A stretch of DNA of 64,000 nucleotides from Tremella fuciformis (lineage: Eukaryota; Basidiomycota; Tremellomycetes; Tremellales; Tremellaceae), in assembly GCA_032768795.1 (NCBI GenBank), contig CP136494.1, positions 1,488,001 through 1,552,000 on the forward strand, given 5' to 3'. The notes under the pieces were generated by a model. That model saw only the letters and a program-made list of their open reading frames with translations, ran no database searches and was not told the DNA's origin. Positions 5,052-50,222 of this stretch are shown here, one piece after another. Both the position numbers and the translations under genes were made by a program. Every line of letters starts with the position of its first letter. Within the stretch, counting starts at the first letter, position 1.

Positions 5052-6481
5052 TCACGACCCCGAACCACTCGCCTCCGCCACGTCGTCGAACATGGGCCCG
5101 ACCATCGCCCTAAGGTCCAGCCCCAGGAGCCTCGCGTGCCGCCTCGCCTCCTCGACGTGGTACGCCCTGTCCGCCGGGATGGACTGGGCCAGCGTGACAT
5201 GGTGCTGAAGGACACCGATGTCGAGCCTCGTCGAGGGAGTCCACGACAAGGGAGCTGGCGCGGATGGGCGGGCAGGAGTCGACACCGGAGGCGGCGTCGG
5301 AGGCGGCACGGGAGCCGGCACGGGTTGACGAACCGACCGGCGAAGTCGGTCGGTGAAGGCGGCCGGGCCGACAACAGGCGTGGGGGCGGGAGTCGGCGAA
5401 GGCGGGTCGACATCCGCGAAGCTCACAGCCCGGCGAGCTCTGGGTGTCGAGGACGAGCTGGCGGGTCGTCGAGGAGTCGGGCTGGAGTTGAACGAGCAAC
5501 CTGAGGCTGTGCCACAGGTGTAGCACTTCAACTTCGGCCCGCCTCCATCTAGGACCCTACACGGCAAGTTGTCCGAACGACACCGCTGGCATCGCTGGCG
5601 GCCGTTGAGCGTGCGGAGAGGTCGCCCTTTTGCCTGAGCCTGCAAGATCAGCGTGAGAGGCTGGAGAGTAGAAGACAACAACGCACCAGGGCCCATGGGA
5701 GGGTCCTATTCGATCCCCGGCCGAACGTCGGGTAGAATGGCCCTGGGAATGAGCGGGGACCTCAACAGATGGCGGACGTACCGAAAAAGGCGCGGTCCAG
5801 CGCATTCCTACACCGGACTCGAGGGCCAGCCTCGAGTCGCCTCGACGACGCCTCGCTTCCCTCCCCATCGGATCCTCCACTGCCCGCTTCGGATTCCCCA
5901 ACGGATCCTTCGCTGCCCGCTTCGGATCCGTCTCCCGTCGAGATGCTGCCCTCCACGACGTCTTCTCCTACACCTGCGTTGTCCACGGCGGCCGGGAGAG
6001 CATCGGCTACCTCAGACACCCCAAGATACCGGGTTGAGGCTGAACGCAGGCGAGAGGAGTACATGCCGCCAACAGGCGACACGCGACGACGCTTTGGGGT
6101 TGGGGAGAGGGGAGGCGGTATCGTTGGCAGGGGAGTGTTGCCTGGGGAACCGGGCGACTCGACTCGACGCCGGCGGCGTGGGTTGATTGGCGGAGTCGGA
6201 GAGCGGGATGGCGGAGGCATAGAAGGCGGGGGAAGGAGAAGGATAGGCGAGCCGAGGGGGACGAGGGGATAGGGCGGTATGATGGGGGATCCGGTCCCAC
6301 CACCAATGTAGGGGCGAAGAGGCCGAGGCGAGGCCGGCTCGAACGGCAAGGAGTGGGCTTCTCGATAGCGACTCTCGCCAGCGAAAGCCGCGTCGGAAGC
6401 CTGGGAAGACGGGGGCGAGGCGTCTGAGTAGCCGCTGGACGTAGAGGAGGTAGCACAGCTACTCTCCCTAGCGGCTCTGAC
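5052..6481 (-). pseudogene. Element A antisense zinc-cluster gene, 3' portion (cut by B1)
   Basis: Two open stretches on the minus strand, down to 5762 and from 5696 to 5052, form the downstream part of a gene convergent with pol. The last exon carries a six-cysteine cluster: CQRC, six residues, C, eleven residues, CYTC, five residues, C, then SF. It resembles the Gal4-type Zn2Cys6 cluster. A proline-rich region and a tail with helical character follow (VEEARRHARLLGLDLRAMV). The upstream exon is Ser/Pro/Glu-rich with basic runs (NPRRRRR, PKRRR) that could be nuclear signals. B1 entered at 6477-6481, separating this part from the 5' exons at 14591-14966. The splice junction near 5640-5780 could not be resolved. 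Function unknown; a DNA- or RNA-binding accessory protein is inferred. Confidence 0.6.
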
Positions 6482-7176
6482 TGTTACGACTCGAACCCGG
6501 CGGCCTTGAGGTCCGGCGACGAGTAGACGGCGGTTGTCGTAATGTGGCAAGCTCGGGTTGCACCGAAGGCGAAGGGGGTACAACCACTGAACCTGTGGCT
6601 TGGTCGGACGGCGTAGTAGAGTCGACAATCCACGAAGGCCACGGTGTGGATGTCGATGCTCGAAGTGCTCGAAGGATCCCACGGAGATAGGCGTCGTGGC
6701 GAGCGAAGGTAAAGACGAAGCGAGCGAAGGGAGGCTCGGTGCAAGGCTCTAAGACTAGGTGTAACTTGCGATAGATTGATCCTTGGGGAGAAGGATCAAG
6801 AAGTAGGCTCTTTATATATGTCTACGGGCTGGGTGGCAAATCCATGTGCGCAACTCCTTCACCTGGAGTTGCCACTCACTCCACCTGACTCCGGGCTGGT
6901 GCCACCTTGGCGCCAGTACGGGCCGGCCTGGGTTCCTAGTTCCACTCGGGGTCACCTGGCGTCACCTGACTTCACCTGGCGTCACCTGGCATTCCCTGAT
7001 TCCACCTGGCGTCACCTGGCGGTAGACCCTTCCAGTGTTCCAGCTTGGAGAGTGAACCCTTCCGGTATTCCAGCTTGGAGAGTGAACCCTTCCGGTATTC
7101 CAGCTTGGGGTGTTGCGATCCGGGTGGCGGACGGTCGGGGGCCTGTATGGGTGGCAACGGTGACCGGATCGTAACA
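6482..7176 (-). repeat. B1 3' LTR (695 bp)
   Basis: The terminal inverted ends are TGTTACGA/TCGTAACA. Read in element sense (minus), the U3 part holds two copies of a 30 bp unit (about 7044-7103) and an array of CAGGTG motifs (about 6954-7020). A TATATAAA box follows at 6818-6811, and 27 nt further on the segment AAGGATCAATCTAT (6784-6771), which matches the primer-binding site in reverse complement. The 30 bp unit is present once fewer in B2. Confidence 0.95.
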
Positions 7177-7178
7177 GT

Positions 7179-7190
7179 ATCCCCCCTCTC
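7179..7190 (-). promoter_or_regulatory. B1 polypurine tract
   Basis: In element sense this is GAGAGGGGGGAT, ending two bases before the 3' LTR. It is the expected RNase H-resistant primer for plus-strand DNA synthesis. B2 has the same tract next to its LTR at 38809. Confidence 0.8.
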
Positions 7191-7538
7191 GTAGTCGCGA
7201 GCTCCTGCGAGCGTAGGAGGCCGATGTGTGTAGAGGGTGTTCGAAAGAGGGTGCTGGGTCGAGTTGAATGCATGTATGTCGGATTGTCGGAGTTGTCGAT
7301 GTCGAAGGGATGCATGCATGTTGTCGAAGGTGTCTTTGGCGGATGCATGCATGCATTGTCGAATGTGTCGCATGCATTGTCGGAAATAATGCATGTAATT
7401 GTTGAATTTCGGAATATTTTGCGGATTTAATCGGTTAAATCCAAAAATGCGAAGTCAAATTTGGTGGGTGGCCAAATTTACTTTGACATTGTATTTCTCT
7501 CGAAGTCGAATCGAAGTCGGATCGAAGCCAAATCGAAG

Positions 7539-8040
7539 ATGAGCGAAGAAACCTCCGAAGTGAGTCGAACTTGTCGAAGTTGATTGTCGTGGTTGCTGAT
7601 ATTCGAAGGTGTCGAAGACTGTCGCAAGTCGACTTGCGAAGGTCGATTCAACTATCGCATCGGGTGTCGAACGCATTGGAGACGAACGATGCGCACGATG
7701 CTCGAAGGGCAATCGAACTTGCATTGCGCCTTCGAACGAACTCATTGCGAAGCGGATCGAAGAGGGGTCGAAGATCCTTCCGAAGTGTGCGCAGTGCCAC
7801 AACGATTCGAAAGGATGCTCCTTTGCACCTACGACTTCGAAGAAGCGCAAGGTCGAATCCGAAGATGACGCGTCTGCGATCATCGAAGCGATCGAAGTGT
7901 TGATCGAACAGGCGCAGAAGCGACTTGCGACTGCGAAGATGAAGAAGCGTCGAAGGCTCGAAGTCGAGAGGTCGATTGCGATATTGAAGGAGAAGTTCGA
8001 TATCGAAGAGGACGAAGGCGAAGGCGAAGACTCCGAGTAG
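7539..8040 (+). CDS. B1 antisense gene 1: six-cysteine cluster protein with SV40-like NLS
   Basis: The gene runs opposite to gag-pol. I read exon 1 at 7539-7559 (ATG AGC GAA...) and a 49 nt intron 7560-7608 (GTGAGT...CGAAG). Exon 2 at 7609-8040 joins in frame and gives about 150 residues. The cluster is CARC, six residues, C, 21 residues, CAQC, six residues, C, then SF. It is followed directly by SKKRKVE, almost the classical SV40-type nuclear signal, then a charged predicted helix and an acidic tail (EEDEGEGEDSE). B2 carries the same gene with only conservative changes, which suggests selection. Related to the antisense genes of A and C by architecture. A nuclear DNA-binding role is inferred from the Zn2Cys6-like spacing. 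Confidence 0.7.
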
Positions 8041-8288
8041 ATAGTGAATAGGTACGATGATGGTCGAGTATGAAATTCGATGGGGTCGAAGGTGATGTTC
8101 GAAGATGCGTAGCCTTGGTTGGCTGCGTGGCCTTGCGACCATTGGGTGCGCTTTGGGTCGAAGTCGCAAGGGCGGGTCGTACCGTAGTGTCGTAGTATGT
8201 CGATGTGGCCATGGTGGCGTCACATGGATTGTGCCGGTGTTCCCCGGTGTCAGGTGGGGCCTCCGGTGTTGTGATAAGGCGATGGGGA

Positions 8289-8294
8289 TATAAG
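8289..8294 (+). promoter_or_regulatory. TATA-like box before antisense gene 2 of B1
   Basis: TATAAG lies 64 bases before the proposed start codon at 8358, in a position fit for a private promoter on the plus strand. The same element is conserved in B2 near 39922. Confidence 0.45.
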
Positions 8295-8357
8295 GGGGTC
8301 GATATTTTGAAAGGATCCCCAAGTGGAGTCGCACTCCTTCGAAAGTCTTCGAATACG

Positions 8358-9201
8358 ATGTCGGGATCATTCGATAATGTCGATTGGAACTTCGTTCTGT
8401 CGCAGCTGGCGCAGCAACCTGTCGAAGCCTTCTTGTCGTTTGTTGGTCGAAGACTGTTGAGGTAGGTGATCGAAGGGTGCTGATGGGCTAGACTGGTGAT
8501 GGTACGATCAATCCTTCGATGTTGAACCAGGCTGTTGCGGAAACCGATGAAGGTCGTTTCGAACCATTGGCTTCGGGCGAGTTCGAGCCATTTGCCTCTG
8601 TGTCGGATGGCAGCGAATATGTTCCTTCCCAAGTTGCGCAGGAGACAGCTTCTACTGTCGCAGCTGGCACATCGGGTATGTCGGAGACCACTGTTCGACG
8701 ACATCAGCGACTTGAGGATATCAAGCGCTTCGGTATCGTTCTTCGAAACAAGTGCGACAATTGTGCAAACACGAAGCGTGTTCACCCCGATTGCGTACAG
8801 TATGGCGCAGGCACCCATTGTATGAGGTGCTATGCCCAAGGTCTCAGGTGTTCGCTTGTCGGAGGAGAAGGTTCGATCCAAGGTTCGGTGGGCTCGAGCC
8901 TGTCGAATACCACTGTCGAAGGGTTGCCTATTCAACAGGTTGGTGGGGTGTTCGAGTTGGTAGTTCGAGTGTTGATCCAGTGTAGGTCCCAGAGGTGTTG
9001 AACTTTGCTTCGACGGCAATTGGACCTCAATTCGGTATTCGAGGTGATGTGTCGAACTTGCGATTGCAGTTGGCGGAGTTCCAGTCGCAGTTGGACGAGT
9101 ATCATCGAGCTTGTTTGGCGAGGGAGTTGGCGGCGTCTTCGGAGAGGGCCAAGCTTCTACAGACGCTTGGAACAATTCTCTCCTATCTTCGAAATGCGTA
9201 G
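8358..9201 (+). CDS. B1 antisense gene 2: six-cysteine cluster and coiled-coil protein
   Basis: Three exons join in frame: 8358-8441, 8492-8938 and 8986-9201, about 248 residues. Both introns use the same donor hexamer GTTGGT and end in TAG, which supports real splicing on this strand. The N terminus is MSGSFDNVDWNF. The middle holds CDNC, nine residues, C, eight residues, CMRC, six residues, C, then SL. The C terminus (from VSNLRLQLAEF to LSYLRNA) looks like a coiled coil. The gene ends 46 bases from the pol stop, tail to tail. It is intact in B2. It differs from antisense gene 1 in sequence but shares the order cysteine cluster then helix, so the two may be old duplicates. Function unknown. 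Confidence 0.65.
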
Positions 9202-9246
9202 TTGTCGTGTTGTGATCTCGTAGTTGTTTACTCCTTTGCTCGAAGA

Positions 9247-12200
9247 TCATTGTCGAATAGGTCGAGATGAATTGAATTCCGATAGAAGTTCTTTGGCATG
9301 TTCGAGGTCGGACTCGGACATCCATTCGGTTTCGTCGTACCCAAGGTATTTGACGAGGTAGCGTCGAGAATCTTTGTACCGCTTGTCGATTTTTGTGTCG
9401 AGGATGGCTTCGATTTCCCATTCCTCTTCTCCTTCTACTTCGATAGGAGGTGGTGGTGGCTGATAACGACGAGGTATTCGATTTGGCAAATAAGGCGATA
9501 AGAGTCGAACATGGAAGACATTGTGTATCTTCATGCTTGGTGGGAGCTCAAGTTGGTAGGCATGACTTGAGATCTTCTTGGTAATGCGGTAGGGGCCAAG
9601 GTGTCGTACATCCAGTTTCTTGGTAGGTCGAGTTGTCCGGATGTGTTTGGCGGAGAGCCAGACCTTGTCTCCAACGTGGTAGACAGGTGTCGGGAGATGA
9701 CTCTTGTTGTATTGAGCGGCAGATGCCTCCAGGGCTTTTGCAACTTCCTGTCGAAGGAAAGTATGCAGCTGGGCAAGTCCTTGCGCAGTCTGTGCGGCAG
9801 GTGGGCGTTCACCTGTGGATGGTGTGTCGGGTACCGGTTCGAAAGTTGATCGCGGGTGATAACCTTTGTTTGCAAAGAAAGGTGAAACCGTAGTCGATGA
9901 ATGCGGCGCGGAGTTGTAGGCAAATTCTGCAAGTGGCAGAAGGTCGGACCAATTCGTTTGTTGATAGTCGGAGTATAGGCGAAGGTACTGTTCTAGCACC
10001 TGGTTGACTCGTTCGGTTTGTCCGTCGGTTTCTGGGTGGAAGGCCGTGCTCAAGTGAAGGTCGATGTTGAGCAGTTTGGTGAATGATCGCCAGAATTCGG
10101 AGGTGAACTCGGATCCTCGGTCGGATATGATTGAAGTGGGGACACCGTGCTTTGAGAACACATGGTGCACGTAAAGTCGAGCCAATTCCTCTGCGGTGAG
10201 GTTGGTGGTTGTCGGAACAAAGATTGCCATCTTTGTGAGTCGGTCGACGATGACGAGAATCGAGTTGTATCCATTGGAGCTCGGTAGGTGTTCGATTAAG
10301 TCCATAGAGATCGAAGTCCAAGGATAAGGTGGGACCGGTAGTGACTTGAGGTGACCAAATGGTAGATGTCGGCGGGATTTGGTTCGTTGGCAGGTGTCAC
10401 AGGTGTCGACAAAGTGATGGATGAAGTCCCTCATACCAGGCCACCAGTAATGGCGCTTGGCAAGGAGGTAAGTCTTCCTGCGACCTGGATGTCCTGCGGT
10501 GGGATGGTCGTGGACTTGTCGAGTAATAAGGAGTCGAAGGTCGTCCGTATTTGGAACGAAGTACCGGTCGTGATATCGAATGACTCCAGTGTCGTCCTGT
10601 CGTAGAGGTGGGGACAGGTTGTCTTGCAGTTTTGCTGCTTCGGGATCCGCGGAGAGGGCGTTGCGGATGAGGGCCACAAGGTTGGTGGTGATGTCAAGAG
10701 TACCGCTAGCAAGGTATTGGCCATCTTTCAGGAGTTGCTGAAAGTTCTGCGGGTTGACAGTCCTGTCGAGTGAGGAACCTGTCTGGCCAGGATGATAGTC
10801 GGATCGGCGGGTGAGGGCGTCTGGTTTTGTCCCTTGAAGTCCCGGGCGGTACCGAATGACGAAGTTGAAGTCGGCCAAGAATTCGGACCATCGGGCTTGT
10901 CGTCGATTGAGTTGCTTTGAAGTCACAAAGTACTCCAAGCTCCTGTGATCGGTATAGACCGTGATCGGATTTGCGGCTCCTTCGAGGTAGTGTCGCCATT
11001 CCTTGAACGAAGAGATGATAGCAAGCATCTCCTTGTCGTGTATCTCGTAGTTGAGCTCAGCGGGACTCATTTTCCGGCTGAGAAAAGCAAGTGGGTGGAG
11101 AATACCCTTGTCGTCTTGCTGCGATAGAATGCCTGCGATGGCATAGTCGGACGCATCCGTCTCCAAGATAAGGGGGAGAGTCGGATCGTAGTGCCGAAGA
11201 AGGTCGGCCGAAGTAAACGCTTGCTTGAGCGTGTCGAAGGCGGATTGCTGTGCGGACTCCCAAGAGAAGGGGAGTTCCTTACGCGTGAGCTGCGTAAGGG
11301 GATGGGCGATTGTCGAGTAGTTTCGGATGAACCGTCGGTAAAAGTTGGCGAAACCGAGGAAGGATCGGACATCGTGTAGGTTGCAAGGTGTGGGCCAGTC
11401 GAGGATGGACTGGACCTTCTTCTTGTCCATGGCGATTCCGTTGGGAGAGATGACAAAGCCCAGGAATTCGACTGTGTTGGTGTCAAACTCGCATTTCTCG
11501 GCTTTGGCAAAGAGGCCAACTTGTCGGAGTCGGTGAAGCACTTGTCGAACGTGCTGGCGATGGGTCTCAGCATTCGGGCTGAAGACTAGGATGTCGTCGA
11601 GGTAGACAATGACGAAGTGGTCGAGCATATCCCTGAAGTTGTGGTTCATCAGGTGCTGGAAGGATGCCGGGGCGTTGGTGAGGCCAAACGGCATAACTCG
11701 GTATTCGAAGAGGCCATAGCGGGTGCGGAAGGCGGTTTTCCATTCTTCGCCTTTGGCTATGCGGAGGAGGTTGTATGCGCCTCGAAGATCGATTTTGGTG
11801 AATACCTTGGCGGAGCGGAGTCGGTCGAGGAGCTCCGAGATGAGCGGTAGAGGATATCGGTTCTTGATTGTGATCTTGTTCAAACCTCGGTAGTCGACGC
11901 AGAGTCGCAGAGATCCGTCTTTCTTCTTGACGAAGAGTATGGGTGCTGCGGCTGGCGATTCAGAAGGGGTGATGAAGCCCTTCTTGAGGTTGTCGTCAAG
12001 ATACTCTCGAAGAGTACCAAGTTCCTTGTCGGATAGAGGGTAGATCGGTCCATAGGGCGGTTGTTTGCCTTCTTCCAAGGGGATCGTATGGTCGAAGGGT
12101 CGATGTGGTGGAAGCTGGTCGGCGCTCTTCTTGCTGAAGACGTCGAGGTAGTCGTGGTACTTGGCGGGGACCATGTCGTGGTCTGAAGGTGGTGCAGTAT

Positions 12201-12813
12201 TGGCTGAAGTGTTGGTGGTCGAGCTAGCTTGGGCCAGCATGGTGGTTGAATTGTCGAAAGGCGATTGTGATGCTGGTCGGATGGTCGAGCTTGGGTGAAT
12301 CGTGCGTCGAGGCCAACTGATGAAAGGGTCGTGTTGAGCAAGCCAAGGCATGCCAAGTACGACTGGGAATACACCAAGTTGGGTGACAAGCGCACGGACC
12401 CAGAGGTTTCCGAAGGTTCCGCAGTTCCGAAGTTGAATGACGGTGTGGTAGGTGATTGATGTTGTCGCACCAGATCCATCCAGGAGTGATAGGGGGACCG
12501 GATCCTGGGAGTATAGCGGTAGGCCTTCGTTTTGGGCGAATTTCATGTCGATGAAATTATTTGAGGCTCCAGAGTCGATTAGCGCACGGGCGCGTTTTTG
12601 GGTTGTCGGTGTGTCGAATTCGAGGAATATGTGTCGGTCTTGAATTATTCGAATGTTGTCGTTCTCTTCCATTCCAATTGCAAGGTATTGAGGGACCTGC
12701 TGGCGCTCCTTCTCCAACCCCAGGTTCCCTTTTGAGGTAGATTGGAGAATCACTCTTTTCCCGAAGGGAGAGAGCGGGTACGCTGTGGTCGAGAGGGCGG
12801 TGCAACAGGGCAT
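9247..12813 (-). CDS. pol: B1 Pol: protease, RT, RNase H, integrase, chromodomain
   Basis: An uninterrupted 1188-codon frame on the minus strand, in the -1 register after gag. Protease active site DSGA at residues 80-83; RT core with LCVDYRGLNK (304-313), MPFGLTNAP (374-382) and YLDD (404-407); RNase H acidic residues around D553, E595 and D622; integrase zinc-binding region with CDTC at 805-808; integrase catalytic residues D838, D898 and E934; chromodomain near 1130-1180 (RYLVKYLGYDETEW). All key residues are present. The listed methionine is not expected to be used; Pol should arise by frameshifting at the heptamer 12756-12762. Confidence 0.95.
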   Translation of the reverse strand: MPCCTALSTTAYPLSPFGKRVILQSTSKGNLGLEKERQQVPQYLAIGMEENDNIRIIQDRHIFLEFDTPTTQKRARALIDSGASNNFIDMKFAQNEGLPLYSQDPVPLSLLDGSGATTSITYHTVIQLRNCGTFGNLWVRALVTQLGVFPVVLGMPWLAQHDPFISWPRRTIHPSSTIRPASQSPFDNSTTMLAQASSTTNTSANTAPPSDHDMVPAKYHDYLDVFSKKSADQLPPHRPFDHTIPLEEGKQPPYGPIYPLSDKELGTLREYLDDNLKKGFITPSESPAAAPILFVKKKDGSLRLCVDYRGLNKITIKNRYPLPLISELLDRLRSAKVFTKIDLRGAYNLLRIAKGEEWKTAFRTRYGLFEYRVMPFGLTNAPASFQHLMNHNFRDMLDHFVIVYLDDILVFSPNAETHRQHVRQVLHRLRQVGLFAKAEKCEFDTNTVEFLGFVISPNGIAMDKKKVQSILDWPTPCNLHDVRSFLGFANFYRRFIRNYSTIAHPLTQLTRKELPFSWESAQQSAFDTLKQAFTSADLLRHYDPTLPLILETDASDYAIAGILSQQDDKGILHPLAFLSRKMSPAELNYEIHDKEMLAIISSFKEWRHYLEGAANPITVYTDHRSLEYFVTSKQLNRRQARWSEFLADFNFVIRYRPGLQGTKPDALTRRSDYHPGQTGSSLDRTVNPQNFQQLLKDGQYLASGTLDITTNLVALIRNALSADPEAAKLQDNLSPPLRQDDTGVIRYHDRYFVPNTDDLRLLITRQVHDHPTAGHPGRRKTYLLAKRHYWWPGMRDFIHHFVDTCDTCQRTKSRRHLPFGHLKSLPVPPYPWTSISMDLIEHLPSSNGYNSILVIVDRLTKMAIFVPTTTNLTAEELARLYVHHVFSKHGVPTSIISDRGSEFTSEFWRSFTKLLNIDLHLSTAFHPETDGQTERVNQVLEQYLRLYSDYQQTNWSDLLPLAEFAYNSAPHSSTTVSPFFANKGYHPRSTFEPVPDTPSTGERPPAAQTAQGLAQLHTFLRQEVAKALEASAAQYNKSHLPTPVYHVGDKVWLSAKHIRTTRPTKKLDVRHLGPYRITKKISSHAYQLELPPSMKIHNVFHVRLLSPYLPNRIPRRYQPPPPPIEVEGEEEWEIEAILDTKIDKRYKDSRRYLVKYLGYDETEWMSESDLEHAKELLSEFNSSRPIRQ

Positions 12814-13814
12814 TCCTTTACGGAGTGTCCTTTCTCTGCGCAGTAGAGACAGAGATTGTTGTCCTTGCGTCGTTGGTATTCGGATGGGGTGATCTTCCCA
12901 CGTTTGGTGAGTCGATCCTTGGCGGAGATGAATCCAGCTCGAAGAGATTCGGTTGGTCGAGTGAAAGTCGATTCGGTCGGACGAGTAAAGGTTGATTCCG
13001 TGCGTGTTGTCGAATTGGACCTGAACCCTGGTCGATTGTAGGTTTGGGTGAAGGTGCGTGTGCCAGAGGACATGGTTGTAGGAGGGCGGTCTCCTTTCTC
13101 AACCTGTCGTTCAAACAGTCGAGTATCGATACGGATGGTGGCATCCTGTAAGTCCTGGAATGTCGCAGGTTTGCCAATTCGAGAGAGCTCGTCCTTGACG
13201 TTCTCCTTGAGTCCTCGGTAGAATTGGGCAGCCTTTGCTTCATCGTTCCATTTGACTAGAACGGCGTGTCGCATGAAGTCGGCAAGGTAGGCGGAGGCTG
13301 AACCACGTTGTCGGAGAGCGTAAAGGTGTCGTTCCGCAGTTGCAACTTCATCGGGGTCGCCAAAGGTTTTGCGAAGCTCTGTGCAGAACTTGGTGAAGTC
13401 GAACATGTATTCCGGTTTTGGATTGGCGGTGACCGATGGTTGAAACCATAAGAAGGCGGTGTCGCGAAGGAAAGATCCGGCGTATAGGACCTTTGCTTCT
13501 TCGGTAGCGAATCGGTTTGGTTGAAGTGTGATCACCATCATGACCTGAGTGATGAAGGTCGATAGTTTGTTTCGCTGTCCATGGTAGAACTCCGGTTGTG
13601 CGACTTTTGGTTCGCTTGTTCGAGTTGTCGTAGCGGAGGTCGTACTGTCGGGTGTGACCTGTCGAGATGTCGGAGGATTGGCGGACAGGTGGGTGACCGA
13701 TTGTCAAAGATCGTTGTTTTCGGTTTGAAGTGTGGCGGTCTGAGTAAGGAGGCTTTGAAGCTGCTCCTCGAGGATGGCGATGCGCTCCTGGTTGGTTCCG
13801 TTTGAGCGAGACAT
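12750..13814 (-). pseudogene. gag: B1 gag with a nonsense mutation
   Basis: Same frame as the intact B2 gag (354 residues), starting MSRSNGTNQ with a coiled-coil-like N terminus, then capsid, basic linker and one CCHC knuckle (CLYCAEKGHSVKEC). At 13704-13706 the B2 codon CGA has become TGA, a C-to-T change at a CpG on the coding strand, which cuts the protein after about 36 residues. The rest of the frame is open. Reinitiation at an internal methionine (about 13541) would lose the N terminus. Confidence 0.85.
12756..12762 (-). promoter_or_regulatory. -1 ribosomal frameshift heptamer of B1
   Basis: In element sense the bases are G GGA AAA in gag codon phase, an exact X XXY YYZ slippery site, followed by one codon (GAG) and the gag stop at 12750-12752. 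Pol is open in the -1 frame at this point. No downstream pseudoknot was worked out. Confidence 0.75.
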
Positions 13815-40879: not shown

Positions 40880-43800
40880 TCATTGTCGAATAGGTCGAGA
40901 TGAATTGAATTCCGATAGAAGTTCTTTGGCATGTTCGAGGTCGGACTCGGACATCCATTCGGTTTCGTCGTACCCAAGGTATTTGACGAGGTAGCGTCGA
41001 GAATCTTTGTACCGCTTGTCGATTTTTGTGTCGAGGATGGCTTCGATTTCCCATTCCTCTTCTCCTTCTATTTCGATAGGAGGTGGTGGTGGCTGATAAC
41101 GACGAGGTATTCGATTTGGCGAATAGGGCGATAAGAGTCGAACATGGAAGACGTCGTGTATCTTCATGCTTGGTGGAAGATCGAGTTGGTAGGCATGACT
41201 TGAGACTTTCTTGGCAATGCGGTAGGGGCCAAGGTGTCGAACATCCAGTTTCTTGGTAGGTCGAGTTGTCCGGATGTGTTTGGCGGAAAGCCAGACCTTG
41301 TCTCCAACGCGGTAGACAGGTGTCGGGAGATGACTCTTGTTGTATTGAGCAGCAGATGCTTCCAAGGCTTTTGCAACTTCCTGTCGAAGGAAAGTATGTA
41401 GCTGGGCAAGTCCTTGCGCAGTCTGTGCGGCAGGTGGGCGTTCACCTGTGGATGGTGTGTCGGGTACCGGTTCGAAAGTTGATCGCGGGTGATAACCTTT
41501 GTTTGCAAAGAAAGGCGAAACCGTAGTCGATGAATGCGGTGCGGAGTTGTAGGCAAATTCTGCAAGTGGCAGAAGGTCGGACCAATTTGTTTGTTGATAG
41601 TCGGAGTATAGGCGAAGGTACTGTTCAAGCACCTGGTTGACTCGTTCGGTTTGTCCGTCGGTTTCTGGGTGGAAGGCGGTGCTCAAATGAAGGTCGATGT
41701 TGAGCAGTTTGGTGAATGATCGCCAGAATTCGGAGGTGAACTCGGATCCTCGGTCGGATATGATTGAAGTGGGGACACCGTGCTTTGAGAACACATGGTG
41801 CACGTAAAGTCGAGCCAATTCCTCTGCGGTGAGGTTGGTGGTTGTCGGAACAAAGATTGCCATCTTTGTGAGTCGGTCGACAATGACGAGAATCGAGTTG
41901 TATCCATTGGAGTTCGGTAGGTGTTCGATTAAGTCCATAGAGATCGAAGTCCAAGGATAAGGTGGGACCGGTAGTGACTTGAGGTGACCAAATGGCAAGT
42001 GTCGGCGGGATTTGGTTCGCTGGCAGGTATCACAGGTGTCGACGAAGTGATGGATGAAGTCCTTCATACCAGGCCACCAGTAATGGCGCTTGGCAAGGAG
42101 GTAAGTCTTCCTGCGACCTGGATGTCCTGCGGTGGGATGGTCGTGGACTTGTCGAGTAATAAGGAGTCGAAGGTCGTCCGTATTTGGCACGAAGTATCGG
42201 TCGTGATATCGGATGACTCCAGTGTCGTCCTGTCGTAGAGGTGGGGACAGGTTGTCTCGCAGCTTTGCTGCTTCGGGATCCGCGGAGAGGGCGTTGCGGA
42301 TGAGGGCCACAAGGTTGGTGGTGATGTCGAGAGTACCGCTAGCAAGGTATTGGCCATCTTTCAGGAGTTGCTGAAAGTTCTGCGGGTTGACAGTCCTGTC
42401 GAGTGAGGAACCTGTCTGGCCAGGATGATAGTCGGATCGGCGGGTGAGGGCGTCTGGCTTTGTCCCTTGAAGTCCCGGGCGGTACCGAATGACGAAGTTG
42501 AAGTCGGCCAAGAATTCGGACCATCGGGCTTGTCGTCGATTGAGTTGCTTTGAAGTCACAAAGTACTCCAAGCTCCTGTGATCGGTATAGACCATGATCG
42601 GATTTGCGGCTCCTTCGAGGTAGTGTCGCCATTCCTTGAACGAAGAGATGATAGCGAGCATCTCCTTGTCGTGTATCTCGTAGTTGAGCTCAGCGGGACT
42701 CATTTTCCGGCTGAGAAAAGCAAGTGGGTGGAGAATACCCTTGTCGTCTTGCTGCGATAGAATGCCTGCGATGGCATAGTCGGACGCATCCGTCTCCAAG
42801 ATAAGGGGGAGAGTCGGATCGTAGTGCCGAAGAAGGTCGGCCGAAGTAAACGCTTGCTTGAGCGTGTCGAAGGCGGATTGCTGTGCGGACTCCCAAGAGA
42901 AGGGGAGTTCCTTACGCGTGAGCTGCGTAAGGGGATGGGCGATTGTCGAGTAGTTTCGGATGAACCGTCGGTAAAAGTTGGCGAAACCGAGGAAGGATCG
43001 GACATCGTGTAGGTTGCAAGGTGTGGGCCAGTCGAGGATGGACTGGACCTTCTTCTTGTCCATGGCGATTCCGTTGGGAGAGATGACAAAGCCCAGGAAT
43101 TCGACTGTGTTGGTGTCAAACTCGCATTTCTCGGCTTTGGCAAAGAGGCCAACTTGTCGGAGTCGGTGAAGCACTTGTCGAACGTGCTGGCGATGGGTCT
43201 CAGCATTCGGGCTGAAGACTAGGATGTCGTCGAGGTAGACAATGACGAAGTGGTCGAGCATATCCCTGAAGTTGTGGTTCATCAGGTGCTGGAAGGATGC
43301 CGGGGCGTTGGTGAGGCCAAACGGCATAACTCGGTATTCGAAGAGGCCATAGCGGGTGCGGAAGGCGGTTTTCCATTCTTCGCCTTTGGCTATGCGGAGG
43401 AGGTTGTATGCGCCTCGAAGATCGATTTTGGTGAATACCTTGGCGGAGCGGAGTCGGTCGAGGAGCTCCGAGATGAGCGGTAGAGGATATCGGTTCTTGA
43501 TTGTGATCTTGTTCAAACCTCGGTAGTCGACGCAGAGTCGCAGAGATCCGTCTTTCTTCTTGACGAAGAGTATGGGTGCTGCGGCTGGCGATTCAGAAGG
43601 GGTGATGAAGCCCTTCTTGAGGTTGTCGTCAAGATACTCTCGAAGAGTACCAAGTTCCTTGTCGGATAGAGGGTAGATCGGTCCATAGGGCGGTTGTTTG
43701 CCTTCTTCCAAGGGGATCGTATGGTCGAAGGGTCGATGTGGTGGAAGCTGGTCGGCGCTCTTCTTGCTGAAGACGTCGAGGTAGTCGTGGTACTTGGCGG

Positions 43801-44446
43801 GGACCATGTCGTGGTCTGAAGGTGGTGCAGTATTGGCTGAAGTGTTGGTGGTCGAGCTAGCTTGGGCCAGCATGGTGGTTGAATTGTCGAAAGGCGATTG
43901 TGATGCTGGTCGGATGGTCGAGCTTGGGTGAATCGTGCGTCGAGGCCAACTGATGAAAGGGTCGTGTTGAGCAAGCCAAGGCATGCCAAGTACGACTGGG
44001 AATACACCAAGTTGGGTGACAAGCGCACGGACCCAGAGGTTTCCGAAGGTTCCGCAGTTCCGAAGTTGAATGACGGTGTGGTAGGTGATTGATGTTGTCG
44101 CACCAGATCCATCCAGGAGTGATAGGGGGACCGGATCCTGGGAGTATAGCGGTAGGCCTTCGTTTTGGGCGAATTTCATGTCGATGAAATTATTTGAGGC
44201 TCCAGAGTCGATTAGCGCACGGGCGCGTTTTTGGGTTGTCGGTGTGTCGAATTCGAGGAATATGTGTCGGTCTTGAATTATTCGAATGTTGTCGTTCTCT
44301 TCCATTCCAATTGCAAGGTATTGAGGGACCTGCTGGCGCTCCTTCTCCAACCCCAGGTTCCCTTTTGAGGTAGATTGGAGAATCACTCTTTTCCCGAAGG
44401 GAGAGAGCGGGTACGCTGTGGTCGAGAGGGCGGTGCAACAGGGCAT
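40880..44446 (-). CDS. pol: B2 Pol: protease, RT, RNase H, integrase, chromodomain
   Basis: An intact 1188-codon frame, nearly identical to B1 Pol, with the same active-site residues: DSGA at 80-83, YLDD at 404-407, integrase D838, D898 and E934, and a C-terminal chromodomain. It is expressed through a -1 shift at 44389-44395. All enzymatic motifs are present, so it could act for its own copy and for B1. Confidence 0.95.
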   Translation of the reverse strand: MPCCTALSTTAYPLSPFGKRVILQSTSKGNLGLEKERQQVPQYLAIGMEENDNIRIIQDRHIFLEFDTPTTQKRARALIDSGASNNFIDMKFAQNEGLPLYSQDPVPLSLLDGSGATTSITYHTVIQLRNCGTFGNLWVRALVTQLGVFPVVLGMPWLAQHDPFISWPRRTIHPSSTIRPASQSPFDNSTTMLAQASSTTNTSANTAPPSDHDMVPAKYHDYLDVFSKKSADQLPPHRPFDHTIPLEEGKQPPYGPIYPLSDKELGTLREYLDDNLKKGFITPSESPAAAPILFVKKKDGSLRLCVDYRGLNKITIKNRYPLPLISELLDRLRSAKVFTKIDLRGAYNLLRIAKGEEWKTAFRTRYGLFEYRVMPFGLTNAPASFQHLMNHNFRDMLDHFVIVYLDDILVFSPNAETHRQHVRQVLHRLRQVGLFAKAEKCEFDTNTVEFLGFVISPNGIAMDKKKVQSILDWPTPCNLHDVRSFLGFANFYRRFIRNYSTIAHPLTQLTRKELPFSWESAQQSAFDTLKQAFTSADLLRHYDPTLPLILETDASDYAIAGILSQQDDKGILHPLAFLSRKMSPAELNYEIHDKEMLAIISSFKEWRHYLEGAANPIMVYTDHRSLEYFVTSKQLNRRQARWSEFLADFNFVIRYRPGLQGTKPDALTRRSDYHPGQTGSSLDRTVNPQNFQQLLKDGQYLASGTLDITTNLVALIRNALSADPEAAKLRDNLSPPLRQDDTGVIRYHDRYFVPNTDDLRLLITRQVHDHPTAGHPGRRKTYLLAKRHYWWPGMKDFIHHFVDTCDTCQRTKSRRHLPFGHLKSLPVPPYPWTSISMDLIEHLPNSNGYNSILVIVDRLTKMAIFVPTTTNLTAEELARLYVHHVFSKHGVPTSIISDRGSEFTSEFWRSFTKLLNIDLHLSTAFHPETDGQTERVNQVLEQYLRLYSDYQQTNWSDLLPLAEFAYNSAPHSSTTVSPFFANKGYHPRSTFEPVPDTPSTGERPPAAQTAQGLAQLHTFLRQEVAKALEASAAQYNKSHLPTPVYRVGDKVWLSAKHIRTTRPTKKLDVRHLGPYRIAKKVSSHAYQLDLPPSMKIHDVFHVRLLSPYSPNRIPRRYQPPPPPIEIEGEEEWEIEAILDTKIDKRYKDSRRYLVKYLGYDETEWMSESDLEHAKELLSEFNSSRPIRQ

Positions 44447-45447
44447 TCCTTTACGGAGTGTCCTTTCTCTGCGCAGTAGAGACAGAGATTGTTGTCCTTG
44501 CGTCGTTGGTATTCGGATGGGGTGATCTTCCCACGTTTGGTGAGTCGATCCTTGGCGGAGATGAATCCAGCTCGAAGAGATTCGGTTGGTCGAGTGAAAG
44601 TCGATTCGGTCGGACGAGTAAAGGTTGATTCCGTGCGTGTTGTCGAATTGGACCTGAACCCTGGTCGATTGTAGGTTTGGGTGAAGGTGCGTGTGCCAGA
44701 GGACATGGTTGTAGGAGGGCGGTCTCCTTTCTCAACCTGTCGTTCAAACAGTCGAGTATCGATACGGATGGTGGCATCCTGTAAGTCCTGGAATGTCGCA
44801 GGTTTGCCAATTCGAGAGAGCTCGTCCTTGACGTTCTCCTTGAGTCCTCGGTAGAATTGGGCAGCCTTTGCTTCATCGTTCCATTTGACTAGAACGGCGT
44901 GTCGCATGAAGTCGGCAAGGTAGGCGGAGGCTGAACCACGTTGTCGGAGAGCGTAAAGGTGTCGTTCCGCAGTTGCAACTTCATCGGGGTCGCCAAAGGT
45001 TTTGCGAAGCTCTGTGCAGAACTTGGTGAAGTCGAACATGTATTCCGGTTTTGGATTGGCGGTGACCGATGGTTGAAACCATAAGAAGGCGGTGTCGCGA
45101 AGGAAAGATCCGGCGTATAGGACCTTTGCTTCTTCGGTAGCGAATCGGTTTGGTTGAAGTGTGATCACCATCATGACCTGAGTGATGAAGGTCGATAGTT
45201 TGTTTCGCTGTCCATGGTAGAACTCCGGTTGTGCGACTTTTGGTTCGCTTGTTCGAGTTGTCGTAGCGGAGGTCGTACTGTCGGGTGTGACCTGTCGAGA
45301 TGTCGGAGGATTGGCGGACAGGTGGGTGACCGATTGTCGAAGATCGTTGTTTTCGGTTTGAAGTGTGGCGGTCTGAGTAAGGAGGCTTTGAAGCTGCTCC
45401 TCGAGGATGGCGATGCGCTCCTGGTTGGTTCCGTTTGAGCGAGACAT
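44383..45447 (-). CDS. gag: B2 Gag, intact
   Basis: 354 residues from the first in-frame ATG (45447, MSRSNGTNQERIAIL); the open frame upstream begins with a non-ATG codon. Coiled-coil-like N terminus (LEEQLQSLLTQTATLQ), Ty3-type capsid (PEFYHGQRNKLSTFITQ, FGDPDEVATAERHL), a Thr/Arg-rich linker with a duplicated TESTFTRP unit, and one CCHC knuckle. It lacks the stop seen in B1. Confidence 0.93.
   Translation of the reverse strand: MSRSNGTNQERIAILEEQLQSLLTQTATLQTENNDLRQSVTHLSANPPTSRQVTPDSTTSATTTRTSEPKVAQPEFYHGQRNKLSTFITQVMMVITLQPNRFATEEAKVLYAGSFLRDTAFLWFQPSVTANPKPEYMFDFTKFCTELRKTFGDPDEVATAERHLYALRQRGSASAYLADFMRHAVLVKWNDEAKAAQFYRGLKENVKDELSRIGKPATFQDLQDATIRIDTRLFERQVEKGDRPPTTMSSGTRTFTQTYNRPGFRSNSTTRTESTFTRPTESTFTRPTESLRAGFISAKDRLTKRGKITPSEYQRRKDNNLCLYCAEKGHSVKECPVAPPSRPQRTRSLPSGKE
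44389..44395 (-). promoter_or_regulatory. -1 ribosomal frameshift heptamer of B2
   Basis: G GGA AAA in gag phase, one codon before the gag stop at 44383-44385. Identical to the site in B1. Confidence 0.75.
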
Positions 45448-45512
45448 GTCGAAGGAAGTGTCGACTTTTGGCGAAGGAAGTATAGTCGATGATTGACCAA
45501 GCACAAGCTGTG

Positions 45513-45526
45513 AAGGATCAATCTAT
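45513..45526 (-). promoter_or_regulatory. B2 primer-binding site, self-priming type
   Basis: The same 14 nt as in B1, two bases from the 5' LTR and complementary to 45818-45831 in the LTR. Confidence 0.7.
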
Positions 45527-45528
45527 AC

Positions 45529-46193
45529 TGTTACGACTCGAACCCGGCGGCCTTGAGGTCCGGCGACGAGTAGACGGCGGTTGTCGTAATGTGGCAAGCT
45601 CGGGTTGCACCGAAGGCGAAGGGGGTACAACCACTGAACCTGTGGCTTGGTCGGACGGCGTAGTAGAGTCGACAATCCACGAAGGCCACGGTGTGGATGT
45701 CGATGCTCGAAGTGCTCGAAGGATCCCACGGAGATAGGCGTCGTGGCGAGCGAAGGTAAAGACGAAGCGAGCGAAGGGAGGCTCGGTGCAAGGCTCTAAG
45801 ACTAGGTGTAACTTGCGATAGATTGATCCTTGGGGAGAAGGATCAAGAAGTAGGCTCTTTATATATGTCTACGGGCTGGGTGGCAAATCCGTGTGCGCAA
45901 CTCCTTCACCTGGAGTTGCCACTCACTCCACCTGACTCCGGGCTGGTGCCACCTTGGCGCCAGTACGGGCCGGCCTGGGTTCCTAGTTCCACTCGGGGTC
46001 ACCTGGCGTCACCTGACTTCACCTGGCGTCACCTGGCATTCCCTGATTCCACCTGGCGTCACCTGGCGGTAGACCCTTCCAGTGTTCCATCTTGGAGAGT
46101 GAACCCTTCCGGTATTCCAGCTTGGGGTGTTGCGATCCGGGTGGCGGACGGTCGGGGGCCTGTATGGGTGGCAACGGTGACCGGATCGTAACA
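45529..46193 (-). repeat. B2 5' LTR (665 bp)
   Basis: Identical on reading to 38145-38809, with one copy of the 30 bp unit. It carries the gag-pol promoter. Confidence 0.95.
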
Positions 46194-48862
46194 GCTTCGA
46201 CTAAAAGCAGCAAAATGCGAGTTCGAGAAAGACAGCATTACATTCTTAGGACACAGGGTGTCTGCGGAGGGGATAGCAACCGACGAAGGACTAACAGAAA
46301 CTATTAGGAACTTCCCTATCCCGACTACACAGAAGGAACTACGATCTGCGGTGGGTCTTTTCAGTTACTACCGAAGATTTGTACCCAACTTCTCGGGAAT
46401 TGCGAGACCTCTCAACAAGTTGATGTCGAAGAAAGCAAGGTTTATTTGGAACGAAGAGGCTGACAAGGCATTTCAGTCGCTGAAAGGTGCCCTATCATCA
46501 CCGCCTATTCTCGGGCACTTCGATCCAGAGCTCCCGATAGAGGTACACACGGATGCCTCGGACTTCACCATTGGGTATGTGATCTACCATGTGGATCGCA
46601 ACACCATGAAGCGAACGGCAATCCATTATGGTTCAGCAAGGCTCAAACCGAATGAGGAGAACTGGACTGTCACCGAGAAAGAACTATTCGCAATTATTTA
46701 TTGCTTACAACATCATCGAGCATATTTCGAGGGCAGCAAATGGCCAATAATCTTTGTTACCGACCATCAGCCCTTGATAGGGTATACCATGCCGAAGCAG
46801 GTATCAAACAGGGAGGCCAGATGGGCAGAGATCCTGGCTCGCTTCGATCTACGAATAGTGTACACCCCAGGTAAGGGCAACGTGGTACCAGACGCCCTGT
46901 CGAGACGACCTGACCTGGCAGGGACAAGAGGCGGTGACAGTTACCAAACGGACTCGAAGGTTCGACAGGTGATCGAGACAATCGATGCTGAGAACGAATT
47001 GGACCAAATAGTGACGAACTTAGAAGAGTCAAAGAAGACAGCTTCAATCGTCGAAGACCAGGAACCCCTTGAAATGTATGGGGTTACAACGACCGAATCA
47101 CCCAGTACAGCAGACCCGAACACGTATGATTGGATCATCGATGGAAGCAGAGTAAGGGAAGGGTATATGAAGGACGAGCAGTGCAGGCAAGTCATCGAAG
47201 GGATTGCCGCACAGAAACCGCTCGAAGATATTAGGAACGAATTGCGACTATCAAGCGATACTAGAGTCGAAATAGACCAACAAGGATTCATCCGCATCGA
47301 CGGCAAAATCTATATCCCAGACTACGATGATTTGAGGTTCAAGATCATAAACTCAAGACACGACACTCCGTTGGCAGGACATCCAGGAGTTAAAAGGACT
47401 ATGAAGGCGGTTCAACGGGACTATTACTGGCCTGGGCTCACTGCGCACGTCACCAAGTACGTGTCGAGCTGCACAGCCTGTCTGCGCACCAAGCCTTTCA
47501 ACCAGAGACCAAGAGGTCAGCTACGAACCTTGGAAGTTCCACGCCTACCGTTCGAGGACATCACGATGGACTTCATCGAAGAGCTGCCAGTCTCAAACAA
47601 CTTCAATTCAATACTAGTAGTGGTCGACCGCTTGACAAAGTACACAGTGCTCATACCCACGGTAACAAAGTTGAACGCACCCGAAATGTGTTCGTTACTA
47701 TTCGATACGGTTTTCTCCAGATACGGACTGCCGAGCACGATTGTATCTGACAGGGGAAGTAAATTTGTATCAGACTTCTGGAGGAGTCTAACGGAGCAAT
47801 TCGACATTCGATTGGCACTCAGTACGGCAAGAAGGCCGCAGACTGATGGTCAAACCGAGCGACATAACCAGAAAGTAGAGGGATTCATGAGGATCTTCAC
47901 CAACTTCGACCAGAACAACTGGGCACCGTTGTTGGCATTCGCCCAGTTCGCCATCAACAACGCCCATCACGATACGATAGGAATGACCCCGTTCTATGCG
48001 CTACACGGATTTCATCCTAGATGGGTTCAGGAAATATTAGAACCGAATAAAGTCGACAATCAGCAAGCAAGACAACGTGCGAACTCAATGAATGAGGTGC
48101 ACTCAATCTGCAGGGAGAACTATGTGCGAGCAGGGAAGGAGATGGAGAAGTACTACAACAGGAAGCATCAGCCTCAAGTCGAGATCAAGGACGGAGACTA
48201 TGTCATGTTGGACCTCGAGGGCCTTAACACGAAACGACCCAGCAAGAAACTCGACTACAGGCGAGATGGACCCTTCCAGGTGGAAGAATCAATAGGAACA
48301 CACGCGAAGAAATTGAAGTTACCAGCGACGCTCAAGATCCACAATGTTTTTCATGTGTCCAGACTGCATCCTGTGGACGTTATTAGCGTCGAAGACAAAC
48401 GAATACGACCAAAAGGGCAACCACAAGGACTACCAACTATAGTGGAGCCTGATGCTGAATTTGAAGTCGAGAGGATTCTGGACTCAAGAAGAACAAGGAA
48501 TGGGAAAGTCGAGTACCTAGTGGAGTGGAGAGGCTACGGGGACGATGAAGTGGGCTGGGAGCCGGAGGTGAACGTCAGAAACGCGGCAGAGGTTGTAAGA
48601 ACATTCCACGAGCGACACCCCGACAAGCCCATTGGTCACACATTCGGAGGAATCAAGAAAGATAGGAGCTATTCAAAACGAATAAAGACAAATAGCGACA
48701 AAGAAGAGCCTATACGACCTAACAAACGACAACGAACTCAAGAGTCAGTCAGGCAAGAGACCGGGCACAGGCATAATCTAAGAAGTCGTCAGTAACTATT
48801 AGTCCCAAATAGCACCCAGTGCGATTGAGGACTTCATAGGTACAACGATAGATGACTATATG

Positions 48863-50222
48863 CTACATTTCCCTATTCTTCCTCTTCAGCGACTCCAAAG
48901 TACGAACAGCTGCCTCGGCTTCACCTATCTGGGAAATGCGCGAATGTATGTCCGCAAAAGTGCCCGCAGGGATAGTGACTGTCCCGGAGGTAGACGAATT
49001 CAATCGAGCGCGTTCGAGTCCCTTCAGACCTTCCTTGAGGGAAAGGAAATGCTCTCGTAAAACCTGAAGATAAGGCGCGGGGTCTGAGAAAGAACATGCC
49101 GAAGTGCACACAGCACAGCGAATTGAGCCTGGCTTGACTCGACAAACAAGCTTGGCCTTGAGACAGCCTCGGCACGGTGGAACCGAGACCGGATAATTTT
49201 GCTGTTCGGCGAACTTCTCATTTGAAAGTGGGCGCGTGCCGCGAGCAGCACGCTTGGGCGGCGCCTCACCGGCCTTAAGTTCGGACGGCCGTTTGTAGGG
49301 CGGGGGGACATCGACAGTGTGGGACTATTCGTCACTATTAACCCCAAACAGTACGAGATCACTTGCCTTCGGAACAAACTTAGACGGGGTCTGACTCGCG
49401 TGGGCGGCTGACATGAACGTGGCATAGTCCTACAATTAGTTACTATTCGTAACGAATAGAAACTACTCACAATGGCCAGGATCTCGTCGGGATCAACTGA
49501 TTCCGGAGTGGACGGAATGGGCTTGGTCTCGTCGAGCTCGCGAATAGGAGTATCGACAATGGCGCGTTGTTTCCCTTTCCCCTTGGAACCCTTCTTGCGA
49601 GGGGGTTCGGACTCTGTCTCCGACGAGTCCAGCTCGTCTTCGATGGCGGGGGGATCGGAGGAAAGAAGGAAGGCTGCTATTAGTTGCGGATACAATCGAA
49701 TAGGAACGACTTACTAGGGTCTTCATCGACGTTACCCTCGGGATCAGTAGTCTCGGATCCATCTGGAAACTATTAGGAACGAATACACACGAATACAAGA
49801 AAACAAACACACCTTCGGATTTGTTGTCAGCCTCCGGGGCGGGCGACGAAGTCTTGTCTTGGGCGGTGTTCAGAGGGGCAGTGGGGGCACGTTCGAGAGC
49901 AGCGGGAGCTGAGACGGTGTCGGCGGGGGCGAGAGGCTGGGTGACGCCTTCTCCATCCGAGAGAGTGGGGAGGGCAGGTGTCTCATCTGCTATTAGTGAC
50001 AAATACGAGCGAGTAGTAGTAACTCACTCGGGTCCGCATCCATCTGGGTGAGATCTTGTCGGGTTTCGTTTGACGGAGCCAACTCGTCCAACTCAGGCAG
50101 GGGCGTCATAGCGGGCGAGGTGGACTTGCGCGTGAAGCGTCCCTTATGCTCTTGGTCAGTAATAGCCACGAACATGATCGAGTACTCACACGTCGTTGGG
50201 CGGATGCGCGAGAGCGGGCCAT
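48863..50222 (-). CDS. Element C antisense gene: six-cysteine cluster protein, multi-exon
   Basis: The gene starts at 50222 (MARSRASAQRR), has a first intron 50189-50149 (GTGAGT...AG) and a second after DADP (GTGAGTTACT...AG, near 50030-49993). At least two more introns follow. The last exon ends at 48863. The N part is acidic (LPELDELA, similar to the DELVDEL of the A gene), the middle has basic patches (PPRKKGSKGKGKQ; PPKRAARGTR), and the last exon carries CRGC, six residues, C, eight residues, CAVC, three residues, C, then SF, followed by a helical tail (FADIHSRISQ...). The cluster strongly recalls Gal4-type Zn2Cys6 fingers. It is convergent with pol, 67 bases apart. Inner exon junctions are approximate. 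Confidence 0.65.

Follow-up and report, generated by a model that had tools for sequence, protein, structure and literature searches.

The long terminal repeat (LTR) retrotransposons of Tremella fuciformis carry, in most of the families that we sampled, an additional gene for a six-cysteine protein. The gene was traced from a 64,000-nucleotide stretch of contig CP136494.1 (C5:1488001-1552000; the window), in which the Ty3 elements A, B (copies B1 and B2) and C have antisense six-cysteine open reading frames (ORFs) between pol and the 3' LTR, on the strand opposite pol and at the positions reported in the initial annotation of this DNA. An ORF of this type could be resolved in 13 of the 18 Ty3 families sampled, and a related module is present in sense at the end of pol in Ty1/copia elements; the module is therefore confined neither to chromoviruses nor to the antisense strand. 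We propose that these are genuine accessory genes for six-cysteine, probably Zn(2)Cys(6)-like proteins, and that the most likely job of the proteins is that of an element-specific transcriptional regulator, a combined reading that we judge to stand at about an even chance.

Recurrence of the antisense gene among Ty3 families

The genome (28.1 Mb in 11 contigs) was searched with the integrase C-terminal domain, giving 150 scored matches of 203 candidates, from which a chosen subset of loci was fetched. The division into 18 Ty3 families, those of the window included, is our own (roughly under 80% identity, using pol ends and a tree) and represents a sample, not a census. Pfam matches to reverse transcriptase (RT), RNase H, integrase and chromodomain identify A, B and C as chromoviruses; the other families are recognised by the integrase-end match only, or by a chromodomain seen by eye on the pol ends. 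The antisense cluster ORF is present in A, B and C, in B' (L011/L012) and F5 (L021-L024), and in L013, L017, L018, L019, L026, L027-L029, L031 and L044. The three families counted in the initial annotation were thus too few, and its description of a fast-diverging, antisense and, by sequence, intron-containing cysteine-cluster gene in distinct chromovirus families is borne out by the larger sample. One further family with a 1832-aa pol (L040/L046) has two half clusters in different antisense frames in both of its copies, with no convincing intron, and is counted apart.

A strict cluster pattern ending in C[ST][FL] has antisense matches in ORFs 3' of pol at 11 of the 27 loci scanned, no match in a sense ORF at any of the 27, and none in 50 x 27 Markov-simulated regions; this pattern was composed after the clusters were known, seven of the 34 entries (A, B1, C, L014, L038, L039 and L046) were omitted from the scan, and the region end of L043 was assumed to be 2300. 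A match of L015 to a looser pattern was rejected as low-complexity sequence. Searching the genome with the A zinc exon yields 65 rows, 20 of which cover the whole query, all without a stop codon, and about 25 further rows come from the 305-aa L031-type family. The last exon of C yields 23 rows, of which 22 are full length and 21 of these stop-free. A convergent integrase-end match lies within 1.8 kb of 29 of 30 A rows and 21 of 22 C rows checked, and the two exceptions (one A row and one C row) have convergent pol sequence alongside; the other 35 A rows, which are fragments and L031-type copies, fall outside this check except for L031. Chance ORFs, or unrelated host genes carried as passengers, would fit the loss of most of the antisense gene in two copies (L015 and L025), but such an origin is hardly credible given the empty simulated and sense-strand scans, the 13 families, and the 20 A and 21 C rows that cover the query without a stop.

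We considered and rejected joint inheritance of the module with pol: the correlation of distances is r = 0.39 among 12 families (25 of 5000 permutations as high) and falls to r = 0.25 (257 of 5000) without L011. The pol ends of L017 and L018 are 74% identical and their clusters only 14% identical outside the shared cysteines, so the module may have been replaced. A gain or loss of the antisense gene separates L026 from subtype L030, which lacks the gene although the two sequences share 94% identity as far as the end of pol.

Selection on the reading frames

Ratios of nonsynonymous to synonymous change (dN/dS) were estimated by the Nei-Gojobori method with our own script. The A exon gives 0.20-0.31 in all ten pairs; the last exon of C gives 0.18 against L038, with 0.35 (4 changes) and 0.20 in two pairs that use a partial L039 frame; and B gene 1 gives 0.11. 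Values in the L031 family are 0.26, 0.06 and 0.22, two of the three on a truncated stretch, and the L044 family, in which 42 changes are synonymous and 17 nonsynonymous, gives 0.10. Every antisense-frame comparison with at least 15 changes falls between 0.06 and 0.31, and pol gives 0.07-0.16. Because the ratios are this low wherever enough changes exist, the antisense frames are constrained where divergence suffices, mostly less tightly than pol, and the ratio near 1 that the initial annotation had named as telling against the genes is not seen in these comparisons. An excess of third-position changes is significant in eight of ten A pairs, in C and in B gene 1, and is not significant in B gene 2 or in the one F5 pair tested. 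Five A copies differ by no insertions or deletions other than ones of 12 nt. Between C and its copy L039 there are 6, 2 and 13 differences at codon positions 1, 2 and 3, and 6 differences in 256 intron sites.

A related module in sense in Ty1/copia elements

A protein search with the L013 product returned five rows: L013 itself, three frames (1763, 486 and 2023 aa) and one weak row (E 0.1) overlapping a Zn_clus match of the host. Sense modules in a single open frame after the pol end are found at C1:2593196-2593723 (L059), C8:42911-43717 (L060) and C4:59332-59580 (L061). RVT_2 matches lie upstream in the same frame (L064, E 5.8e-70; L065, E 1.3e-69) and overlap in frame with L059 and L060; L061 is assigned to copia by its similar pol end only. 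The order is pol end MIADGLTKPL, which we take to be a typical copia pol end, then the cluster module and then a tail, all in sense in the same frame. Against a profile that contained only antisense clusters of Ty3 elements, the scores of the three copia modules were 29.7-30.0 bits, compared with at most 18.0 bits for 20 cysteine-kept shuffles and at most 15.3 bits for eight host Gal4-type clusters, and the sense and antisense modules are accordingly alike beyond their cysteines. A search with the copia module at E <= 1 returned 13 rows: three copia (itself included), L013 and nine of F5 type, of which four are in L021-L024, one (C5:444340) is confirmed by F5 pol and four are identified by a neighbouring integrase match only. 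The dN/dS of the copia module is 0.28 over 83 codons. The top match to the Ty3 profile, at 36.0 bits, is L063 (C3:10140-10268, minus strand), which is near a contig end and has no pol match in 1.6 kb on its lower-coordinate side.

The presence of the module in sense, fused in the copia pol frame, indicates that the protein matters and not an antisense transcript alone. The available excerpts of PMC7175516 and PMC7264820 describe control by antisense RNA in other elements, and the transcript could in principle act through double-stranded RNA or on copy number, the ORF being incidental. Purifying selection on the reading frame and the occurrence of a related protein module in sense both speak against this, and we regard it as very unlikely.

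The sense fusion is less kind to our preferred reading in another respect, as it would suit a role inside the particle as well. The main rival to a transcriptional regulator is that the protein acts in the particle or pre-integration complex, in nuclear import, chromatin targeting or as a nucleic-acid chaperone; fusion after copia pol would bring it directly into particles, and both the rapid divergence between families and the nuclear localisation signal (NLS)-like patches in five of nine pieces scanned would suit it. However, the Ty3 gene is separate, antisense and apparently spliced, and hence lies outside Gag-Pol, and the Ty3 elements already own a chromodomain, with a zinc-knuckle motif in B gag that was seen by eye and is not in the Pfam list. 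A particle role is therefore unlikely in our estimation, if still the strongest of the competing explanations.

Relationship to Zn(2)Cys(6) clusters

Fifteen sequences from 12 families, themselves selected by the six-cysteine pattern, have the six cysteines in common and little else. At the last cysteine, 13 of the 15, and 14 of 14 in a later set, have the triplet C[ST][FLI], a feature not demanded by the first patterns. The Zn(2)Cys(6) family PF00172 has the spacing C-x2-C-x6-C-x5-12-C-x2-C-x6-8-C, which L013 and L019a match; the other members deviate in at least one loop. We rejected PF00172 as the family because scores fall below the Pfam cut-off: it is reported for one of 15 members scanned, and a genome scan in which 150 of 199 candidates were scored gave 123 Zn_clus rows among the candidates scored, with none inside the window. 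These rows, like the short intron-like stretches, suggest a fungal genome. DUF3716 (PF12511) was likewise rejected, with 13.9 bits for B gene 2 and 11.6-12.6 for B', the B gene 2 relative P0002 and L060 against a cut-off of 22; of its two rows in the genome one is L063 and the other, C1:3911081, has no such cluster or pol match in the flanking stretches fetched.

Several comparisons nevertheless point to the Zn(2)Cys(6) class. When the cluster profile is searched against PDB, 12 of 18 matches belong to Zn(2)Cys(6) proteins, the five best being among them, whereas one cysteine-kept shuffle gave two of 13; all nine matches of a longer profile are of this class, and the best PDB profile match is AlcR, which has a long C3-C4 loop. 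Profile-profile comparison with eight host clusters gives a probability of 34.8, against 1.8 for the shuffled version. All 13 Foldseek matches are of the Zn(2)Cys(6) class, none of them significant, and their re-ranking adds no independent evidence. The NLS-like patches are in A exon 2, B gene 1, L013, L019a and L031, one of the three matches in L031 being inside the cluster; the pattern is absent from the A zinc exon, B gene 2 and two C pieces among the nine scanned. A crude heptad score of the tails is 6/8 for C, 7/8 for L013 and 5/8 for L019a, and a tail helix in B gene 1 is taken from a structure model. The module thus resembles Gal4-type factors in its six-cysteine arrangement, in the typical spacing of L013 and L019a and in the helical tail of some members. 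It differs in that the basic CRxRKxKC loop of the host proteins is absent by eye from the retrotransposon members, several of which are longer between C2 and C3 or between C3 and C4, or shorter in the last loop, and in that a fungal_trans domain is not reported for them and they remain below the Pfam cut-off. We conclude that the module is probably a Zn(2)Cys(6)-like DNA-binding cluster.

Fast divergence between families with conservation within them could also reflect a counter-defence protein, acting against host silencing or in trans as a regulator of host genes. Pfam and NCBIfam scans found nothing significant, no dedicated silencing-suppressor search having been made, and the loci contain no pointer to a host target; we find such a function doubtful, more so than one in the particle.

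Structure of the antisense genes in the window

The antisense gene of A probably has three exons, as judged from its sequence and that of its relatives. The last exon (5052-5639, minus strand, boundary within 2 nt) encodes the cluster C-x2-C-x6-C-x11-C-x2-C-x5-C-S-F and is preceded by a predicted second intron (5640-5781) with donor GTACGT and acceptor TTGCAG. Most of exon 2 (5782-6481) is proline-rich with an NLS-like PKRRRV and is interrupted by B1; the remainder of exon 2, the first intron and exon 1 lie beyond B1 (14591-15104, minus strand), the start codon being uncertain. The ORF at 5052-5696 described in the initial annotation does exist, and represents only the last exon of this probably three-exon gene, with its ATG at 5696 falling in the predicted intron. 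An uninterrupted copy of A (L055) can be aligned with 15863-14591 and 6481-5649, the two segments overlapping by 5 bases that correspond to the target duplication; frames for exons 1 and 2 are visible in its upstream part, and the B1 insertion point is in exon 2. The L031 family has a donor at the same codon (LDRSFFG in L031, LDRAFFG in A), and the interval before the zinc exon is 142 nt in L031 against 140 in A. Protein-database searches with A matched only the window's own protein, and an alignment of the A group matched nothing at E <= 1.

The C gene was placed at 48863-49200 in the initial annotation; it is located there, and extends from 50222 to 48863 (minus strand) over seven predicted exons (50222-50190, 50148-50028, 49986-49813, 49762-49715, 49673-49471, 49429-49367 and 49324-48863), the cluster being in the last. 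The predicted in-frame product is 367 aa, and the six predicted introns are 41, 41, 50, 41, 41 and 42 nt long with donors GTGAGT (three times), GTGTGT, GTAAGT and GCAAGT. Intron-like stretches are also present in the L044 family (about 47 nt, GTGAGT ... CTGAC ... TAG, directly before the zinc exon) and in the L027 family (43 nt, within the cluster). Splicing in all families is predicted from sequence alone, and on that basis the antisense genes appear to contain introns. Motifs resembling intron ends (CTAATAG, ACGAATA) occur in the C introns and, on either strand, in the C LTRs (34458, 50646 and 51207), where they could mark introns of untranslated regions.

B1 has two antisense genes on the plus strand. 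Gene 1 (7612-8040, with a first exon from an ATG at 7539 possible) encodes a cluster with a 20-residue C3-C4 loop, an NLS-like KKRK and, in a low-confidence structure model, a long C-terminal helix. Gene 2 (8358-9201) is probably spliced, with a cluster exon at 8492-9001 and a last exon to 9201 as proposed in the initial annotation. The B2 copies, also on the plus strand, are at 39242-39673 (gene 1, 96% identical to B1) and 39991-40834 (gene 2, cluster exon 97% identical). Among ENA contigs P0002 matches B gene 2 with 86% identity across 91% of the query, P0003 matches B gene 1 with 80% identity, and P0004 was likened to B' gene 1 by eye; the B and B' frames are therefore not unique to this assembly. 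ENA and protein searches found no outside relatives of A or of the other families searched. Absence of the frames from intact relatives, which the initial annotation had held to count against the genes, is not what we observe, as the frames recur in further copies and in these ENA contigs.

The elements that carry these genes are nested. A has a pol with protease, RT, RNase H, integrase and chromodomain at 802-4911 (plus strand) and LTRs of 405 bp that are 100% identical, at -641 to -237 (left of the window) and 15652-16056 (3' LTR, plus strand). B1 (6482-14590, minus strand; identical LTRs of about 696 bp; target-site duplication CTGAC) is inserted in exon 2 of the A antisense gene and has a pol with chromodomain at 9247-13098 (minus strand). 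B2 (38145-46193, minus strand; identical LTRs of about 666 bp; duplication GCTTC) is inserted in the pol of C (34345-51304, plus strand; identical 772-bp LTRs; duplication TCTTA). The duplications of B1, B2 and C were read from the junction sequences. Identical LTR pairs, and nesting with 5-bp target duplications, indicate that A, B1, B2 and C are recent insertions. The LTRs of B1 (6482-7177) are about 30 bp longer than those of B2 (38145-38810), and both have repeated words of the GCCAGGTGAC type; the difference is probably one of repeat units. Adjoining the A 3' LTR, open frames with cysteine/histidine patterns are seen on the minus strand at 16029-17430.

Candidate sites between the antisense start and the 3' LTR

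Between antisense gene 1 and the LTR of B1 there is an array of ten partly overlapping TGCATG/CATGCA matches (7268-7394), and all ten TGCATG matches of the 6.7-kb internal region are within these approximately 125 bp. In B', ten of 11 TGCATG matches are clustered at the corresponding place. The B and B' arrays cannot be aligned by blastn, and only an adjoining 48-bp piece aligns. Seven other stretches (L013, L017, L018, L019, L021, A and C) lack the array and have none to five scattered matches. A dense TGCATGCA array was noted in the gene-to-LTR stretch at 7268-7394 of the window, and, in pol orientation, at 4112-4200 of L011 and 4134-4222 of L012.

A second candidate is the palindrome GTTGCTAGGCAAC, which resembles the RFX X-box. 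Upstream of the A antisense gene it takes the form GTTGCCTAGCAAC (15125-15137), the reverse complement of which is found twice upstream of the C gene; the two GTTGCTAGGCAAC copies in C are between the antisense ATG and the 3' LTR (50367-50431, starting at 50367 and 50419). The palindrome thus occurs once in A (15125) and twice in C, with a one-base variant in F5 (L021-L024), and is absent from the loci of other families scanned. A degenerate form of GTTGCTAGGCAAC is found at 114 places genome-wide, compared with 20 for a reversed control. We regard the arrays and palindromes as candidate promoter or operator sites. The classic Gal4-type target is a pair of CGG triplets, and such pairs were rejected as sites here, as A, B and C have no excess of them in either their LTRs or their pre-LTR regions.

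A proposed role in regulation

Under the reading that we prefer, the regulator of Ty3 chromoviruses would be the product of a separate, intron-containing antisense gene whose upstream region is between its start and the 3' LTR, and in the Ty1/copia relatives the module would be fused in sense to the end of pol. The regulator may act on its own promoter region or on the LTR and so set the level of element expression. This supposes that the module proteins are expressed, bind zinc and DNA, are located in the nucleus and dimerise, all of which we infer. Introns on the antisense strand could survive reverse transcription because the genomic RNA would be unspliced there, and if this is correct the antisense orientation has a simple possible reason, as the introns are not lost via genomic RNA. 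Control of the LTR, of copy number or of silencing, as suggested in the initial annotation, may be the job, although the simplest Gal4-like prediction, enrichment of CGG pairs in the LTRs, failed in A, B and C. More tentatively, and with appreciably less confidence than in the regulator itself, we suggest that a retrotransposon-specific Gal4-like module distinct from host factors has become a common third gene of LTR elements in this fungal lineage, each family having evolved its own specificity and operator sites by the 3' LTR and thus a private pairing of transcription factor and promoter.

A number of observations weigh against the regulator. No antisense cluster gene was found in four of the 18 families (L016/L020, L041, L043 and L042/L045/L047), of which L041, L043 and L042/L045/L047 form one clade in the tree, and copies of L016/L020, of L042/L045/L047 and, less sharply, of L041 cease to align about 500-600 bp past pol; subtype L030 also lacks the gene despite its closeness to L026. 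Constraint is not apparent in B gene 2 (dN/dS 0.67, six changes), the F5 ratios, each based on six changes at most, are 0.37-1.89 in five pairs and undefined in a sixth, and B' gene 1 gives 0.86 (four changes), with B' gene 2 unchanged. The invariance of the six cysteines is partly due to the sequences having been picked by that pattern. No Pfam match is above the cut-off, the best being Zn_clus at 12.9 bits (L019a) against a gathering score of 21. Most of the 12 Zn(2)Cys(6) matches in PDB span half of the cluster only; a host hidden Markov model separates the retrotransposon clusters from shuffles at p = 0.05 only, with two shuffles scoring highest; host Gal4-type clusters do no better than shuffles on the retrotransposon profile; and the structure model is of low confidence (mean pLDDT 59.9). 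Among the candidate sites, neither the TGCATG array nor the X-box-like site extends beyond a few families, and CGG pairs (inverted, everted or direct, spacing 0-20) show no enrichment in A, B or C, whether in the LTRs or in the pre-LTR regions. The presence of one module in both LTR superfamilies and in both orientations, under measurable selection, points to sequence-specific DNA binding as an activity that can be tested.

Comparison with known antisense genes

What the antisense genes of LTR elements do in plants and fungi is not settled, regulation being suspected. The closest parallel is with the Boty-like Ty3 elements, whose hosts, Botrytis and Sclerotinia, are ascomycetes. These are fungal elements with a chromodomain and an extra antisense gene, brtn, between pol and the 3' LTR, an arrangement like that described here, and the available excerpts name no zinc cluster for brtn, which is compared by description only (PMC7264820, PMC4227169, PMC8365987). 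The statement in the initial annotation that no zinc-cluster antisense system is described in fungal chromoviruses must therefore be narrowed: antisense genes had been described there, and zinc is not mentioned for them in those excerpts. A literature search of titles and abstract openings found no zinc-cluster antisense gene in fungal LTR elements and no such module shared by both LTR superfamilies. As far as these searches show, the cysteine-cluster module, its recurrence over most of the sampled chromovirus families, the evidence of selection and the Ty1/copia sense counterpart are new.

In plants, the aORF-3R genes of Grande (gene23), RIRE2 and Retand are also one or more antisense genes between pol and the 3' LTR, and according to the excerpts available 97% of Retand clusters carry an antisense gene with TRP28, and for Grande a promoter of its own and a nuclear protein are reported; DNA binding is suspected (PMC7264820, PMC11963269). 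The genes described here share two defining features of aORF-3R, a position on the opposite strand between pol and the 3' LTR and retention in many copies (in A and C). They differ in that the aORF-3R hosts are plants, the aORF-3R proteins are described in the same excerpts as having a TRP28 domain (PF04195) or no known domain, and Retand is not of a chromovirus lineage; the Pfam families reported for the 15 members scanned here do not include TRP28.

A more distant comparison is with other antisense regulators of retroviruses and with HBZ of HTLV-1, a virus of animals; HBZ is a bZIP-type protein. They are, as the genes described here may be, antisense regulatory genes of retroelements, according to the excerpt available (PMC11963269). 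The module supplies a profile with which other fungi can be searched, and if our proposal is correct retrotransposons govern their own expression through dedicated transcription factors, as some retroviruses do.

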